From a virus, in IMG/VR virus record IMGVR_UViG_3300046459_000822, positions 1 to 41,194 of that record: DNA of 41,194 bases; one strand, written 5' to 3'. The stretch's first letter is position 1, and every line of letters starts with the position of its first letter. The position numbers and the translations under genes were made by a program. The notes beneath the pieces were generated by a model. It was given only the letters and a program-made list of their open reading frames with translations, was not told where the DNA came from and searched no databases. This document shows positions 28,309 through 40,455 of this stretch, in pieces.

Positions 28309-29640
28309 TCAGGGGTAAGTGGGCGGAGGGACGTCCTTGAGGGCGGTCTCCATGCCGAGCAGTCCGGCGTCAAGGGCGCCCTGCTGCATCCAGAGGGTTA
28401 CCTGCTTCCAGCGCTCGGCTGCGTCGGCCATGTCGAGTGCGGGGTTGGCGAGGAGGTGGAACCCGAGCGACGGACCGGCGTTTGGGATCGGCTTCAAGCC
28501 GGTGGTGTCGAGCACCTCGGTGACCGGCCGCCCCATGATGATGTGGAGGTTTTGGGGCTGTGGGACGGCCAGAGGGTCGATGGCGGCGAGGTCGGCCAGC
28601 GGCTCGACGACTTCCCGGCTGACGAACGTTTGCACCATCGCGTCCATGAGCTGAGCGAGCTCTTGAACACCGATCCGTCGTCGGGTGAACTCGGCTGCGC
28701 CGCTGCCCTGTTGCAGCGCGTTGGCCATGTCGCTGGTCCTCACGATGACGTCTAGTTCGACATGGAGGCGCTGGCTCTGGTGCCCGTACGAGCCCGGAAC
28801 CTGAACGTGAGCGATCGCCTGCACCGGATATTCCCTGCCTGTGGGCCAGTTCTCAGGAGCCCCTGACCACTGCAACCGCAGATCACGAGCGCGGTTGTGC
28901 CCTTCCCGGTGGAAGGGGTTGAGCCCGCCGCTCCACGCTGGGCCCAGGCTCATACGTCCGAGCACGCTGCTGAGCCGGGACTGGTTGAGGGCATCTGTGA
29001 ACGCGTCGATGCTGCGTTCCGAGAGAGGACGCCACAGCGCCTCGGCGGAGACCGGAACGTTCAGGCCGGTCCGAGCGACGAAGTCCATGTCCTGATCGAC
29101 CTGAGGAGGGGCCTGGAGATGCCATGCCTGCTCTGGCTCCAGGGCGGTCTGGCTGAACAGTTGCTTGAGTCGTTGCCAGCCCGCCGGGTGAGTGGTGCTG
29201 TGGTCCCGCACGTAGGCGACCCCATCGACCAGGAGCGGGCTGGGGTGCTGGCCGGGGACAACGCGGAGAACGAGCACGTACCGCCCTGAGTCGTCGTCCA
29301 TGGGGACGGGAATGATCTCGGGGACCCAGGGCGGTTCGATCTTGGCATGGCAGTGGTCTGCGACGTAGTCGACGGTCTGTTCCTTGACGCCCTTGAGTTC
29401 CCGGGTCCTGTCGGTGACGCCGATCAGCAGGAGGCCACCGTACGTATTGGCAAGCGCCGCAACACCCCGGGCGACGCTGTCGGCCATCTTTTCCTTGTAC
29501 TCGACCGTCGGCGACTCGGGACCGATCTGGTTTACCAGGGCACGCACCCGCGCGATCGTGAACTCCGACGGCGCCGCGTGAAGCAGTGACAGTGTTGAAA
29601 CCACGACCGGCATCATCCTCATCCGCCAGCTGAGCAGCAA
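28309..29640 (-). CDS. Schlafen/AlbA_2-domain protein
   Basis: The product is 443 aa from TTG (29640, GGAG upstream); an ATG at 29622 is also possible. The segment around residues 45-75, VEYKEKMADSVARGVAAL and ANTYGGLLLIGV, is the AlbA_2 (Schlafen-type, PF04326) pattern ExK...AxANTxGGxLxIGV. Such proteins act as nucleic-acid-binding or defence proteins. The C-terminal part is unlike known domains to me. It lies between the HTH gene and the methyltransferase. Confidence 0.7.
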   Translation of the reverse strand: MLLSWRMRMMPVVVSTLSLLHAAPSEFTIARVRALVNQIGPESPTVEYKEKMADSVARGVAALANTYGGLLLIGVTDRTRELKGVKEQTVDYVADHCHAKIEPPWVPEIIPVPMDDDSGRYVLVLRVVPGQHPSPLLVDGVAYVRDHSTTHPAGWQRLKQLFSQTALEPEQAWHLQAPPQVDQDMDFVARTGLNVPVSAEALWRPLSERSIDAFTDALNQSRLSSVLGRMSLGPAWSGGLNPFHREGHNRARDLRLQWSGAPENWPTGREYPVQAIAHVQVPGSYGHQSQRLHVELDVIVRTSDMANALQQGSGAAEFTRRRIGVQELAQLMDAMVQTFVSREVVEPLADLAAIDPLAVPQPQNLHIIMGRPVTEVLDTTGLKPIPNAGPSLGFHLLANPALDMADAAERWKQVTLWMQQGALDAGLLGMETALKDVPPPTYP

Positions 29641-29731: not shown

Positions 29732-30463
29732 TCACGCAAGGCGCAGACCGCACGTGTCGAGCCGGGTGTGTGCTGTGGCTGCGATGCGTGGGGACTGCTC
29801 GATGCCGATGAAGGAGCGGCCGGAGGTGAGGGCGGCGACGCCGGTAGAACCGGAGCCGGTGAAGGGGTCGAGGACGGTGCCCTCGGGGACGCAGACCTTG
29901 ACGAGCTCGGTCATGAGCTCGTCGGGTTTCTGGGTGATGTGGACGCGGCCTTTGCCGCGGGGCTGGCTGGCTGAGTAGAGGCCGGGCAGGCAGACAGGGT
30001 TGCGTGCTGCGTCGACGGGGCCCTTGGTACCCCACAGGACGTATTCGCAGGCCCGGTTGAAGCCTCCTCTGTAGGGGCGGGAGATGGGTTTGTGCCAGGG
30101 GACGATGCCGCGCCAGGTCCAGCCAGCTGCCTGGAGGGCGTCGGAGGTGGCGGGGAGTTGGCGGAAGTCGGTGAAGACGAGGAGCGGGCCGGTGTGCTGG
30201 GTGAGGCGGTAGCACTCGGTGAGGATCAGTGTGAGCCAGAGGGTGTAGCTGCGCTGGTCGCGGTTGTCGCCGTCGAAGTCGGGCAGCTGGTGCTGGGCGT
30301 CGCCGCTGACGTACTTGCCGCGGGCGGTGTCGCTGGTGCGCTGCGTGGTGGTGGTGCCGCCGGAGTTGTAGGGCGGGTCTGTGATTGTTGCGCTGACCGA
30401 GCTGTCGGGCAGGGAGCGCAGGAGAGACAGGGCGTCTCCTCGGTGCAGGGTCCAGGTGGACAT
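29732..30463 (-). CDS. Solitary DNA methyltransferase, beta class
   Basis: The product is 243 aa from ATG (30463). Catalytic motif DPPY (29-32) precedes AdoMet motif FTGSG (201-205), the beta-class order, with HITQKP (175-180). Such enzymes make N6-methyladenine or N4-methylcytosine. No restriction nuclease is nearby, suggesting protection from host restriction or regulation. Confidence 0.88.
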   Translation of the reverse strand: MSTWTLHRGDALSLLRSLPDSSVSATITDPPYNSGGTTTTQRTSDTARGKYVSGDAQHQLPDFDGDNRDQRSYTLWLTLILTECYRLTQHTGPLLVFTDFRQLPATSDALQAAGWTWRGIVPWHKPISRPYRGGFNRACEYVLWGTKGPVDAARNPVCLPGLYSASQPRGKGRVHITQKPDELMTELVKVCVPEGTVLDPFTGSGSTGVAALTSGRSFIGIEQSPRIAATAHTRLDTCGLRLA

Positions 30464-30578
30464 GGTGGGGGCCTCGTCTCTGTGAGGGTCGCGTACGCCA
30501 GTGGGTGTGGCGAGCAAGTCGGTGCACTGTTCAACGAGTGTCCGATGGGAACGCGTGTTCGCATAGGGGGTATCGGAG

Positions 30579-31301: not shown

Positions 31302-31786
31302 GGCCGCTGCTCGTCGCGTGTGTCGGCCCGGACGGCGGTGACGAAGAAGACGACGGCCACGACGGCGAGGACGGCGCTGGTGATCCACCACCAGTGGCCG
31401 TTGTAGGCGGCCTGGATGGTGGCGGCGGCGGTGAGGCCGGAGAGGACGCTGAAGGTGATCTCGCGTCGGCCGGGGCGGGCGGGCACAGGGTTCCTTGGGG
31501 TGTCGGTGTGGATGGTGTAGCCGAGGCCGGTCAGGTAGCTGTCGACGTGGTCGGCGACAGCGGGGGCGTGGAACGGGGCGACGGGGTCGGTGGTGATCCA
31601 CCAGTCGTCGAGGGCTGCGGCGATCGACTCGCGGAGTGTGGGCGGGTGGGGCATTGGCTCGTTCCTGCGGCGGTGATTGTGGATGACTTCGCGGGTGGCG
31701 GTGATGAGGAACGCGATGAAACAGAGCCCGCCGACGGCGAGGCAGGTGAGACCTGCGATGACGAGGCGGCCGGGCAGGTCGCTCAC
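31298..31786 (-). CDS. Membrane protein, early operon
   Basis: The product is 162 aa from GTG (31786), overlapping the previous stop as GTGA. Hydrophobic helices lie at about residues 5-30 (LVIAGLTCLAVGGLCFIAFL) and 110-155, the latter as two. The intervening soluble part contains HAPAVADHVDSYLTGLGYTI. Function unknown. Confidence 0.65.
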   Translation of the reverse strand: MSDLPGRLVIAGLTCLAVGGLCFIAFLITATREVIHNHRRRNEPMPHPPTLRESIAAALDDWWITTDPVAPFHAPAVADHVDSYLTGLGYTIHTDTPRNPVPARPGRREITFSVLSGLTAAATIQAAYNGHWWWITSAVLAVVAVVFFVTAVRADTRDEQRP

Positions 31787-32127
31787 CGCTGCCACCTGAC
31801 GGGGCGTACGCCGTGGGCGGCGCGGCCGGCGGTGCGTCGGGCTGCTGCTGCGCGCCGGCGTGCCTGGGCGAGGGCGACGGGGCACGAGGAGAAGTGCGGG
31901 CGGCGCAGTACCTCGCGCTCCTCTGCGACGGGCCGGTCCTTGCTGAGCTGGCGCGTCCAGTAGATGGACTCTCTGATGCTGATGGCCTGGTTGCCGGTGG
32001 GGTCCTCGGGCGGGTCTATCGCGATGATTTGCCGGTGCTTGGTGGTGAGGGCGTACAGGACGCGTCTGCTGCAGTCGTCGCAGGTGCCGTAGCCGGTGGT
32101 GGTCCGGCGGGTGGGGCTCGGGTACAT
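31783..32127 (-). CDS. Small CxxC protein, early operon
   Basis: The product is 114 aa from ATG (32127); GGAAGGAC lies upstream. One CDDC pair near residue 16 and an Arg-rich C-terminus suggest nucleic-acid binding. Coupled by overlap to the membrane protein gene. Confidence 0.65.
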   Translation of the reverse strand: MYPSPTRRTTTGYGTCDDCSRRVLYALTTKHRQIIAIDPPEDPTGNQAISIRESIYWTRQLSKDRPVAEEREVLRRPHFSSCPVALAQARRRAAAARRTAGRAAHGVRPVRWQR

Positions 32128-32148: not shown

Positions 32149-33150
32149 TCAGGTGCCGGTGGGATCGGGCAGGTAGCGGGCGTGATCGCCGGTCCAGCGG
32201 TCGCCGTAGACGCGGGCCGCGTCCTCGGGGCGCTCGCGGGCCACCACGGCGCGCCAGCCCTCCCGTGGGGCACCGATGGATGCCTGGGTCTGTTCGGGGC
32301 CCGAGGGGTGCTTGGCGGGGTGTGGGGGGTGCGGGACGGAGGCGAGCAGCGGCATCTGTCCGTCGGGCACCGCGTTCCTGCGCCGAGACGTCTGGGCAGG
32401 GCCGTGCCCGGGAACGGCGTGAAGCGGCGGCGGGGCGTGCGGTGGTGACGGATCGTCAACCCGTTCGTCGGCCTCGTGCCCGCGCGCGACGTCAGGTTGA
32501 GGTCCTACAGCAACCATCTCCTGGGGGTTGGTCTTGAGTACTCCTGTGTTGTTGGGCGGGACGTCGCCCGAACCGAACGGGCGACGAGGGCCCGAACCCG
32601 GTCGGGCGTCCGCCGCCCGAACCCCTTCCGCCTCCACGGGGGTTGAGGTCGGGCGGTCGTGGCCTGAACTCAAGTGCTGTGCGGCTGCGGCAGGCTCGGG
32701 CGCCCGTCGCCCGAACTCGGCTGCGCCGTGACCGTGTTCTGTGTCCGCCTGTGGCTCGTCCGCTCCCGCATCGAGGACCGCGAGGGCGGCATCCCACCGC
32801 GGGATGTCGAACGGGACGACCAGGCGGTAGACGGTGATGCGTCCGCGTCTGGGGGTCTGCTCGGTGGTCAGGATCCCGGCGGCGATCGCCGCGCTCAGGT
32901 AGCGCCTGGCGTCTTTCTCCCGCGATCCCATGGACGTCGCGAGCTGCGTGATCCGGATGGGCTGCCCGGTGTCTGAGAAGCGCGTGCGCCCGTGGGCGTC
33001 GGCCAACGACGCGATGGTCTGTAGGGCGTACAGGAACGCCTTGCGGCGGCGCAGTTCCTGAGGCATCCGCGGTACCCACCGCCAGGCCATGCGGAGGCGG
33101 AAGGAGTGCGGGATGCCGCCGCTCGCGCGGTCCGGCGGGGTATCGGGCAC
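32149..33150 (-). CDS. Replication-initiator-like winged-helix protein
   Basis: The 333-aa protein has an N-terminal winged-helix region (about residues 15-120; KAFLYALQTIASLADAHGR, IRITQLATSMGSREKDARR, YLSAAIAAGILTTEQTP), as in phage and plasmid replication initiators, then a disordered Pro/Gly-rich tail (about 125-333). The iteron-like repeats at 32554-32716 lie in the DNA coding for the linker, a layout like lambda O, whose gene contains the origin. GTG start. No helicase or polymerase is nearby, so host proteins would be recruited. Function inferred. Confidence 0.6.
   Translation of the reverse strand: MPDTPPDRASGGIPHSFRLRMAWRWVPRMPQELRRRKAFLYALQTIASLADAHGRTRFSDTGQPIRITQLATSMGSREKDARRYLSAAIAAGILTTEQTPRRGRITVYRLVVPFDIPRWDAALAVLDAGADEPQADTEHGHGAAEFGRRAPEPAAAAQHLSSGHDRPTSTPVEAEGVRAADARPGSGPRRPFGSGDVPPNNTGVLKTNPQEMVAVGPQPDVARGHEADERVDDPSPPHAPPPLHAVPGHGPAQTSRRRNAVPDGQMPLLASVPHPPHPAKHPSGPEQTQASIGAPREGWRAVVARERPEDAARVYGDRWTGDHARYLPDPTGT
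32554..32716. repeat. Five iteron-like repeats, candidate replication origin
   Basis: Five 20-bp copies end at 32573, 32597, 32622, 32669 and 32716, approximating CGGGCGnnnnnCGCCCGAAC (each itself a small dyad). Their spacing is 24, 25, 47 and 47 bp, near multiples of 23.5. The intervals are not all multiples of three and copies lie in different reading frames, so they are not a coding repeat. Confidence 0.55.
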
Positions 33151-37440: not shown

Positions 37441-37947
37441 CTAGGCGACGCGCTGCTGGCGCTGCCCTTCCAGGACGGCCAGGGGGTCGAAGCGGCGAGA
37501 TCGGCCGACGTAGTGCAGGCCGGGCCACAGGTCGTCAGGGTTGTGTTCAAGCGCCCATTGCTGAATCTGCTGATCGATCCAGGACATGGACTTGCGCAGG
37601 AAGATGGCGAGCTCGCGCTGATCCATCAGCTGATCCGGAAGCGGTCTCAACACCGACTTCCGCATACTCGGTTTGCATGTAGATGTAGATTCTCGAAGCG
37701 TGAAAGAGACCGGCTCGAATAGGTCGGCGACCTCCCGGCCGAGGGCGAGTGCGATCAATTCCGCTGCCCTGTTGCTGCAGTCCTCGCGGGCCGTTCTTCC
37801 TGCCCCCGTAATGAAGCCGACGTATGCCTTGGAGAGGCCGGCGCCCTCGGTGTCGATCTCTCGCGTTCGGGCGGCGAGGCGCGGGATGTCCAGCCCGGAT
37901 GCCCTCATGGCGTCCCGGAGCGGGGCTCCCTTGGCCAGTCGTCGCAT
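37441..37947 (-). CDS. Divergent XRE + HTH17 regulator of the immunity region
   Basis: The product is 168 aa from ATG (37947), GGAGGAG upstream. Residues 10-75 are XRE-like (LRDAMRASGLDIPRLAARTR; LSKAYVGFITGAGRT) and residues 110-150 form an excisionase-type HTH (LMDQRELAIFLRKSMSWID). It is divergent from the 141-aa XRE protein. Operator half-site at 37676-37690 lies inside its coding DNA. Cro- or excisionase-like role inferred. Confidence 0.75.
   Translation of the reverse strand: MRRLAKGAPLRDAMRASGLDIPRLAARTREIDTEGAGLSKAYVGFITGAGRTAREDCSNRAAELIALALGREVADLFEPVSFTLRESTSTCKPSMRKSVLRPLPDQLMDQRELAIFLRKSMSWIDQQIQQWALEHNPDDLWPGLHYVGRSRRFDPLAVLEGQRQQRVA
37676..37690. promoter_or_regulatory. Operator half-site inside the left regulator gene
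   Basis: CATGTAGATGTAGAT matches the right half of the two intergenic operators. With flanks (37675-37699) it matches 38139-38163 at 23 of 25 positions. Confidence 0.5.
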
Positions 37948-37993
37948 GGTGCTCCTCCGGCGCATGGCCGACTAGGGGTGAGCAGGCCTCCGA

Positions 37994-39033: not shown

Positions 39034-40455
39034 ATGGTGCGCAAGACGGCCCAGCCCAGGGCCACCACAAACCCACGTCCCAACCCGTCCATGCGCTGTG
39101 GCTGCCCGCCGTGCCTGAAGAAGTACCCAGGTGATCGGCCGTCGACCGACGAGCACACGGGATCCTGGGAAGCCCGCTACATCGACCCCTCAGGCCGGGA
39201 CCGCAGCAAGGTCAAGCCCACCTATGACGACGCGGTCGCCTTCCTGGAGAAGACTCGCACCGAAATGCGACAGCGGACCTGGATGGACCCCGCCCGCGGT
39301 GAGATCGCCCTCGGCGCCTGGTGGGACCTGTGGTGGCCGACCCAGACAAAGGGGGAGCACCGTATCGAGCACTGGACTCAGTCCCAATTGCGTGACGAGG
39401 GGATGTGGCGCAACCACATCGAACCCTTCCTCGGGAGCTACCGACTCTTCGAACTGGCGTGGCTGGAGATCCAGACCTGGACCAACTCGCTGCACGACGA
39501 GAGCGGTGGCCCGCTCGCCGCCAGTTCGGTGACGAAGTGCTTCCAGGTGCTCGACAAGATGCTGACCGCGGCCAAGCTGGACCGGCGTATCCCCTTCAAC
39601 CCGGCCGAGGGCGTCCGGCTGCCGACGGTGAAAAAGAAGCACCCCGAGGACCGACGCCCGCCGACATACGCTCAGCTCTGGCTGATCCGGCACAAGCTCC
39701 CCGAGTACTTCCACAATCTGCTGATCGTCGCCCAGGAGACGGGGCTCCGCTTCCAGGAGCTGGCCGGACTGCGCTGGTGCAACGTCGACTTCGAGCGTCG
39801 GCGTATCCACGTTCGCGAGGTCCTGGTAGAGCCGCGCGGGAAGATCAAGCGGAAGTCCTACCCCAAGAGCGACGCCGGCCTGCGGACCGTTCCCATGACC
39901 GGACTCGCTGCCCGGGCGCTCCGGGAGCTGTGGGCAGAGGAGCCGAGCGCCAGCCGGGCCGTCTCCGAGCCGAAAGACGGGTTGTGTGAAGACGAGTTGG
40001 TCTTCCACGGACGGAACAAGGTCCGTCGGGGAAGCAAGATGAACGGCGGAGAGGGGGAGCCCTACCGGGCGCCGCTTCGGCGCTCCGCGTTCCGCCGGCT
40101 GTGGATCGCTGCCATCCAGGCCGCAGGGGTGGCGCGCGAGGCGGTCCGAGTGGTCACGGCTCGGCGCAGGGACAAGGAGACAGACCGACTGCGTGCGGTA
40201 GAAGAGGAGCGGACGGACTGGTGGCCCGACTTCCACCACACCCGGCATGCCTTTGCTTCTCGGCTCCATGCTCGTGGGGTGCCGGAGGTCATCACGCAGG
40301 AGATCCTCGGACATGAGCGGGCGGGTGAGGTGACGTGGATCTATACGCACGCGGCGGCGGACTACGCCGGCCAGGTCCTGGCGGCACTGGACGACGGGAA
40401 GCCGGGTGTCAGACGGAAGCCGGTGCGGCGACTCCAGGCGGTGCAGGCCGCGTGA
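39034..40455 (+). CDS. int: Tyrosine recombinase / phage integrase
   Basis: The 473-aa protein has an N-terminal arm-binding region, a core-binding SAM-like domain (about 95-190) and a catalytic domain. The pentad is visible: Arg239 (TGLRFQELAGLRW), Lys278 (SYPKSDAGLRTVPM), His401/Arg404 (FHHTRHAF), His427 (ILGHER), Tyr437 (WIYTHA). It integrates the element at a tRNA gene; the attachment site begins about 150 bp downstream. Confidence 0.95.
   Translation: MVRKTAQPRATTNPRPNPSMRCGCPPCLKKYPGDRPSTDEHTGSWEARYIDPSGRDRSKVKPTYDDAVAFLEKTRTEMRQRTWMDPARGEIALGAWWDLWWPTQTKGEHRIEHWTQSQLRDEGMWRNHIEPFLGSYRLFELAWLEIQTWTNSLHDESGGPLAASSVTKCFQVLDKMLTAAKLDRRIPFNPAEGVRLPTVKKKHPEDRRPPTYAQLWLIRHKLPEYFHNLLIVAQETGLRFQELAGLRWCNVDFERRRIHVREVLVEPRGKIKRKSYPKSDAGLRTVPMTGLAARALRELWAEEPSASRAVSEPKDGLCEDELVFHGRNKVRRGSKMNGGEGEPYRAPLRRSAFRRLWIAAIQAAGVAREAVRVVTARRRDKETDRLRAVEEERTDWWPDFHHTRHAFASRLHARGVPEVITQEILGHERAGEVTWIYTHAAADYAGQVLAALDDGKPGVRRKPVRRLQAVQAA

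Follow-up and report, generated by a model that had tools for sequence, protein, structure and literature searches.

An in-gene array of palindromic iterons in a putative phage replication initiator gene, co-varying with one residue of the encoded winged-helix protein

Five 23-bp palindromes lie within a single gene of a phage genome from IMG/VR (41,194 bases, 69% GC; this whole stretch is hereafter called the window), and this array very likely represents a replication origin of the phage, embedded in the gene of its own initiator. The encoded protein very probably binds the array, because residue 77 of its winged helix and one base of the palindromes change together among relatives, and origin function is likely by analogy with in-gene origins that are already known, namely those of lambda O, SPP1 oriL and RepA_N plasmids such as pSK41. 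With less assurance, we lean towards the broader view that Streptomyces phages and prophages share this origin machine, in which the geometry would be fixed while residue 77 (R, D or S/N) switches the specificity (G, C or A).

Results

Phage context

The window carries phage structural genes (terminase, portal, major head and tape measure) and, since a tyrosine integrase and a cro-like repressor are encoded as well (Table 1), the phage is judged from its gene content to be temperate and of the kind that integrates as a prophage. Relatives come from Streptomyces. A 3.5-kb piece of the window, used as a DNA query against a phage collection, gave no match. On the strand that bears the array gene, a small gene downstream of it (31783-32127) matches phrog_5984 (unknown function; E 9.6e-7), and a 443-aa SLFN_AlbA_2 protein (28309-29640; PF04326, E 4.2e-16) is encoded next to an N6/N4 DNA methyltransferase (29732-30517). 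We discarded GC skew as a pointer to the origin: the cumulative curve rises until about 33 kb and then levels off, a shape that gene orientation alone could explain.

Table 1. Coordinates of the array, the putative initiator gene and further features in the window
Feature	Position	Strand	Basis
Putative initiator gene, 333 aa, GTG start	32149..33150	-	ORF, homologues and weak PHROG match
Predicted winged-helix DNA-binding domain, residues 13-130	32761..33114	-	AlphaFold2, pLDDT >90 over most
Codon of residue 77 (Arg), candidate specificity residue, start of recognition helix	32920..32922	-	Co-variation and AlphaFold2 helix
Iteron 1 in coding direction, GTTCGGGCGACGGGCGCCCGAGC	32694..32716	-	
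Iteron 2, GTTCAGGCCACGACCGCCCGACC, weaker	32647..32669	-	
Iteron 3, GTTCGGGCGGCGGACGCCCGACC	32600..32622	-	
Iteron 4, GTTCGGGCCCTCGTCGCCCGTTC	32575..32597	-	
Iteron 5, GTTCGGGCGACGTCCCGCCCAAC	32551..32573	-	
Putative DNA-unwinding element, A+T-enriched third codon positions	32461..32550	-	Family GC3 and AT profile
C-terminal helical module, residues 298-326	32173..32259	-	Common to L003 and partly to other close relatives
Cro-like repressor	37441..37965	-	phrog_14639, E 2.2e-20
Tyrosine integrase	39034..40455	+	PF00589, E 6.7e-18

Five palindromes out of phase with the codons

The palindromes span positions 32551-32716, with start-to-start distances on the + strand of 24, 25, 47 and 47, precisely as a sequence-only reading of this DNA had described them; the repeat is palindromic as that reading held, but its unit is 23 bp rather than the 20 bp it gave, with a 5-nt centre flanked by arms of 9 nt each. 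The pattern GTTCGGGCGNNNNNCGCCCGAAC, allowing up to three mismatches, is matched five times in 41,194 bases, always inside the array, and sites of this type occur neither elsewhere in the window nor at the gene's own promoter. Dinucleotide shuffles of the window contained 0.13 matches on average and none out of 100 reached five. When the codons of the gene were shuffled synonymously 2,000 times, so that protein and codon usage are kept, at most three sites arose; a motif-free repeat score likewise stood at 35 for the gene, compared to a maximum of 30 in 300 synonymous-codon shuffles.

The site positions modulo 3 are 2, 1, 0, 1 and 1, in keeping with the earlier remark that the repeats ignore the codon phase, and one DNA motif is therefore read as five different peptides (EFGRRAPEP, SSGHDRPTS, VRAADARPG, GSGPRRPFG and GSGDVPPNN). 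The array had also been placed in linker-coding DNA, and it does encode about residues 145-200, for which AlphaFold2 predicts a pLDDT of approximately 50, as opposed to more than 90 for residues 21-130.

Conservation of the array in relatives

Homologues of the window protein were found at 1 and 32 loci in two IMG/VR searches, at ten loci of Streptomyces genomes and in the phages OnionKnight (gp46) and Chymera (gp45), where both are annotated 'hypothetical protein'. Dropping a repeat contig (L035, same contig as L003), a truncated gene (L028) and five duplicates (L037, L038, L040, L044 and L045) left 39 non-redundant genes, including that of the window. Conservation in related phages had been put forward as a check on the array, and we found an array at the same position of the gene in 39/39; each gene also has a repeat family above the best of its 10 synonymous shuffles. 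Free variation of the repeats among relatives, named beforehand as a finding that would refute the idea, was not seen, as their differences track residue 77 of the protein (see below); for the other such finding, a failure of the protein to bind, this co-variation is strong indirect evidence to the contrary. The relatives' repeats are 23-bp palindromes of the form GTTCGGG-NN-5 nt-N'N'-CCCGAAC at about nt 400-620 of the gene, their arm pairs being complementary at 7.1 of 9 positions over 193 sites versus 2.6 in windows along the same genes. Strict scoring recovers five sites in 30 genes, six in 6, three in 2 and one in 1.

In 32 of the 39 genes the sites are spread over all three reading frames, so the constraint acts on the DNA. 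We thus see next to no chance that what is repeated is the protein sequence (Ser-Gly-His/Asp-Arg-Ala-Pro), with DNA similarity as a by-product: L003 and Chymera do hold several in-frame copies spaced by 36 bp that are translated into SSGHRAP or SGDSAP, but such a repeat is at odds with this frame usage, with the five unlike peptides of the window, with the loss of the array on synonymous shuffling, with the predicted disorder of the linker and with the co-variation of an iteron base with the distant codon 77.

A search of 392 Streptomyces genomes by spacing only (GTTCGG at 25 and 24) returned 19 places in 16 genomes, 11 of them in a homologue of the initiator gene and 8 without a homologue and by eye not palindromic, while the reversed control spacing pattern returned none among the genomes listed. 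A class-wide sample gave matches in 4 of 394 genomes; genome contigs scanned with the window protein alone contained no relative, and the Chymera N-terminal domain matched nothing in a plasmid collection. L089 (407 aa) and L092 (about 403 aa) form a divergent lineage with an in-gene array at about 1875-1985 of each locus, which has the centre ATGCA and spacings of 36, 25 and 23, both being D77 with GG...CC sites. The distant homologue L093 (1489-1869) is a lone winged helix of 126 aa with no array, linker or C-terminus, and may be a regulator that descends from the initiator.

Near-invariant geometry

At the 3' end of the array, in the reading direction of the gene, a step of 25 bp is followed by one of 24 bp in 38/39 genes by strict scoring and in 39/39 by loose scoring; in the window these are the steps between iterons 3, 4 and 5. 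The commonest layout is 25-46-25-24 (16/39), followed by 36-46-25-24 (7), and the window has 47-47-25-24. Upstream steps are 46 (29 cases), 25 (20), 36 (19), 47 (5) and 35 (2), with 37, 39 and 23 occurring once each. Steps near 25, 36 or 46-47 differ by about one helical turn, and successive sites therefore keep nearly the same angular offset. The best spacing period is 10.9-11.1 (R 0.92-0.95), compared to R 0.89-0.93 for 10.5 and 0.84-0.86 for 12, and 0 of 5,000 draws from a simple null (uniform 23-49 bp) scored as high; one chain in this test, that with the spacing of 23, includes a doubtful site. As the peak is broad and the 39 genes are related, we set aside an exact period and claim only the difference of about one turn.

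One residue tracks one base of the palindrome

All N-terminal columns of the protein were scanned against base 16 of the site (or the complement of base 8), which adjoins the CCCGAAC arm. Residue 77 stood out with z 20.7 (next column 5.2) in the 39 genes, and with z 26.3 (next column 6.2) when 50 genes were considered. The rule that R77 goes with G, D77 with C and S/N77 with A fits 38/39 genes, a tie in L019 (5 A to 5 G) being counted as fitting, and the exception is L031 (S77 with G). It was fixed before further genes were fetched through a protein search of 392 Streptomyces genomes (24 places), although the arrays of five of these later genes had been seen by then, and it fits 11/11 of the later-found genes with <95% identity. 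This later set leaves out L087, where tblastn gave no homologue, as well as ten genes identical to those already included, the fragment L090 and also L089, in which no array was usable for the site scorer and the fit is by hand (D77, GG...CC); its site filter used the GGG/CCC arm letters and palindromy and left the base at 8 or 16 free. When the 50 genes are taken together, the rule holds for 447 of 500 half-sites. The left half-site is relaxed in several S/N77 types, and the D77 genes L039 and L043 depart from the rule with A in most right half-sites.

On a tree built without column 77, base class and residue-77 class each change about 11 times. Along well-supported branches, 7/7 independent D/C pairs differ together (sign test p 0.0156), as do 5/6 pairs for S/N with A and 3/3 for R with G in almost every one of 200 pairings. 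One such switch separates the window (R77, G) from its sister L006 (D77, C), with which it groups at 99/96 support. The co-variation is not a coding artefact, because codon 77 lies some 200 nt upstream of the array. In the AlphaFold2 model residue 77 sits at the start of the recognition helix (residues 78-91), and Arg-G, Asp-C and Asn-A are pairings that fit the usual side-chain chemistry in the major groove.

Residue 78 is E in most proteins and V in L085, L086 and L089, whose base 4 is A or G and not C; residue 78 and base 4 are a possible second code position, suggested by too few genes.

A low-GC3 stretch past the array

Averaged over the family, GC at third codon positions (GC3) amounts to 0.87-0.96 upstream of the array and 0.65-0.81 across it, falls to 0.46 in the 30 nt directly past it, stands at 0.52 in the 30 nt after those and is back at 0.94 by 120 nt. 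For a genome so rich in GC this is a pronounced local A+T enrichment, and the low-GC3 stretch adjoins the sites of nearly invariant spacing. The lambda origin has a second inverted repeat downstream of its iterons. We rejected such a repeat as a family feature, as only 7/39 genes have one at p<=0.05 versus shuffles, one of these (L043) with a different inverted-repeat sequence, and the window has none downstream of the array (5, against a null mean of 5.2). An inverted repeat CTGAGGT...ACCTCAG is present past the low-GC stretch in L003, L004, L005 and some other relatives.

An initiator or a regulator

The window protein weakly matches the PHROG 'replication initiation O-like' (E 0.014). Among the 39 proteins, 11 match this family (phrog_391) at E<=0.01 with a best E of 3.5e-4, 5 match phrog_270 ('replication initiation protein') and 8 match phrog_2030 ('transcriptional regulator') at the same threshold, and Pfam searches gave FaeA-like regulator matches in 8/39. 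No Pfam initiator domain, the O family included, was matched by any of the 39 at E<=0.01, the RepA_N domain (PF06970) likewise by 0/39, and a profile search against the sequences of solved structures had a best E of only 0.034. Fold comparison retrieved the RepA initiator N-terminal domains 4pql, 4pt7, 4pta and 5kbj (which we take to be RepA_N initiators of pSK41 and pTZ2162), with Z 7.6 for 4pql_B and Z 7.5 for 4pt7_B (rmsd 3.2 over 91 residues), but these scores are tied with those of unrelated winged helices. The fold alone decides nothing, because initiator domains tie with MarR- and CRP-type regulators in the structural matches.

The protein might accordingly be a transcription regulator, with the array serving as operators or 'stoperators' that block transcription within its own gene. 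The generic winged helix and the FaeA-like and phrog_2030 matches would suit such a role, and the evidence for binding fits both roles equally. We regard it as improbable, in view of the absence of sites elsewhere in the window and at the gene's own promoter, of the fixed spacing with its near-constant helical phase, of the A+T-enriched stretch beside the near-invariant sites and of the PHROG matches, which lean to replication (initiator 11 and 5 versus regulator 8).

The C-terminal tails of the family are of at least two kinds, a helical tail resembling REGWR...VYGDRWTGDHARYLP in the window, L003, L006 and L031, and Cys-rich, zinc-ribbon-like tails that replace the helical module in many other relatives; perhaps the two kinds have different host partners.

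Partner genes and proposed mechanism

Among 21 further ORFs of the window that were scanned (a subset of its ORFs) no helicase, primase or helicase loader was recognised, and none of the 62 features of OnionKnight is named as such, from which we infer an in-gene origin that would rely on the host helicase and primase. Small DNA-binding proteins that occupy arrays of sites are a feature of partition systems as well, and the array could in principle be a centromere-like partition site, the protein acting as a winged-helix adaptor that maintains an extrachromosomal prophage. To this we give even less credence than to a regulator, as the presence of a tyrosine integrase together with a cro-like repressor suggests a prophage that integrates, copies are present in Streptomyces genome assemblies, and the subset of window ORFs scanned includes no ParA- or TubZ-like partner.

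For an origin read by its own initiator, we propose that each palindrome is occupied by a presumed dimer of the winged-helix domain, with one recognition helix per half-site GTTCGGGNN, and that residue 77 would read the base next to the CCCGAAC arm, a step that the co-variation strongly supports. Five dimers at nearly constant helical phase could then build one nucleoprotein complex, which, in the way of lambda O and SPP1 gp38, may melt the A+T-enriched stretch past the array, while the C-terminal part of the protein would recruit the host replisome.

Discussion

If correct, these proposals identify both the initiator and the replication origin in one family of phages and prophages of Streptomyces, and provide a one-residue DNA recognition code for initiators. 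There would be at least three replication-specificity types that arose repeatedly, while assembly of a multi-dimer complex would lock the remaining arm bases as well as the spacing (25-24, with the other steps one turn apart). Such types would offer ready-made replicons for Streptomyces genetics, and the invariant geometry makes a clean system for how in-gene origins form while coding for protein. The literature searched, in which few subscription papers were covered, contained no description of this initiator family or of a one-residue code.

A likeness to the lambda O origin and to plasmid iterons, already suspected by the sequence-only reading, is supported by the winged-helix N-terminus, the palindromic iterons in DNA for a disordered linker and the adjacent low-GC stretch. 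According to the account in PMC7466680, ori-lambda lies in the middle of the O gene and its iterons are inverted repeats beside an AT-rich tract, the two AT-proximal iterons being enough in vitro; there, as in the Stx phages P27 and 933W, the initiator gene carries its own origin, as it appears to do here. A dimeric initiator, inverted-repeat iterons and an AT-rich tract would be shared with lambda O (the dimer being presumed in our case), with four iterons in lambda, six in the Stx phages (PMC7466680) and five or six in the window family. Unlike lambda, the window family has a different iteron sequence, only weak PHROG similarity with no match to the Pfam O family, and no recognised lambda P-like loader next to the window initiator gene; because the genome is 69% GC, its AT-rich tract also shows mainly in third codon positions.

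RepA_N initiators, as outlined in PMC5703833, begin with a winged helix of about 120 aa and end in a variable C-terminal domain, and the origin boxes lie in the centre of the gene, in DNA for a dispensable linker. The window family resembles these plasmids in its central repeats, in a linker encoded by the array and in its variable C-terminus, and its N-terminus is likewise predicted to be a winged helix, with fold scores that tie with unrelated ones, but it has five or six GC-rich palindromes instead of four Rep boxes and no RepA_N Pfam match. The oriL repeats of SPP1 likewise lie inside the initiator gene, gene 38, with an AT-rich unwinding element (PMC6316719), similar to the arrangement here, whereas SPP1 encodes its own loader gp39 and helicase gp40, neither of which was recognised among the window ORFs scanned.

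Closer to the host, the Rep of the Streptomyces theta plasmid pWTY27 (repAB/iteron) is described as binding repeats to start replication (PMC3583192), its iteron being in non-coding DNA beside the rep genes and not inside a gene as in the window. For RepA of the mycobacteriophages Miko and Rachaly, also an initiator of actinobacterial temperate phages, an origin is suspected within or next to repA, although no repeats were reported there; their prophages are extrachromosomal with parABS (PMC7157519). We do not claim membership in any known initiator family, because a Pfam domain is lacking, the PHROG matches are weak and the fold scores are tied. By analogy, the likeliest reading is that the window family works in the manner of lambda O, SPP1 oriL and the RepA_N initiators.
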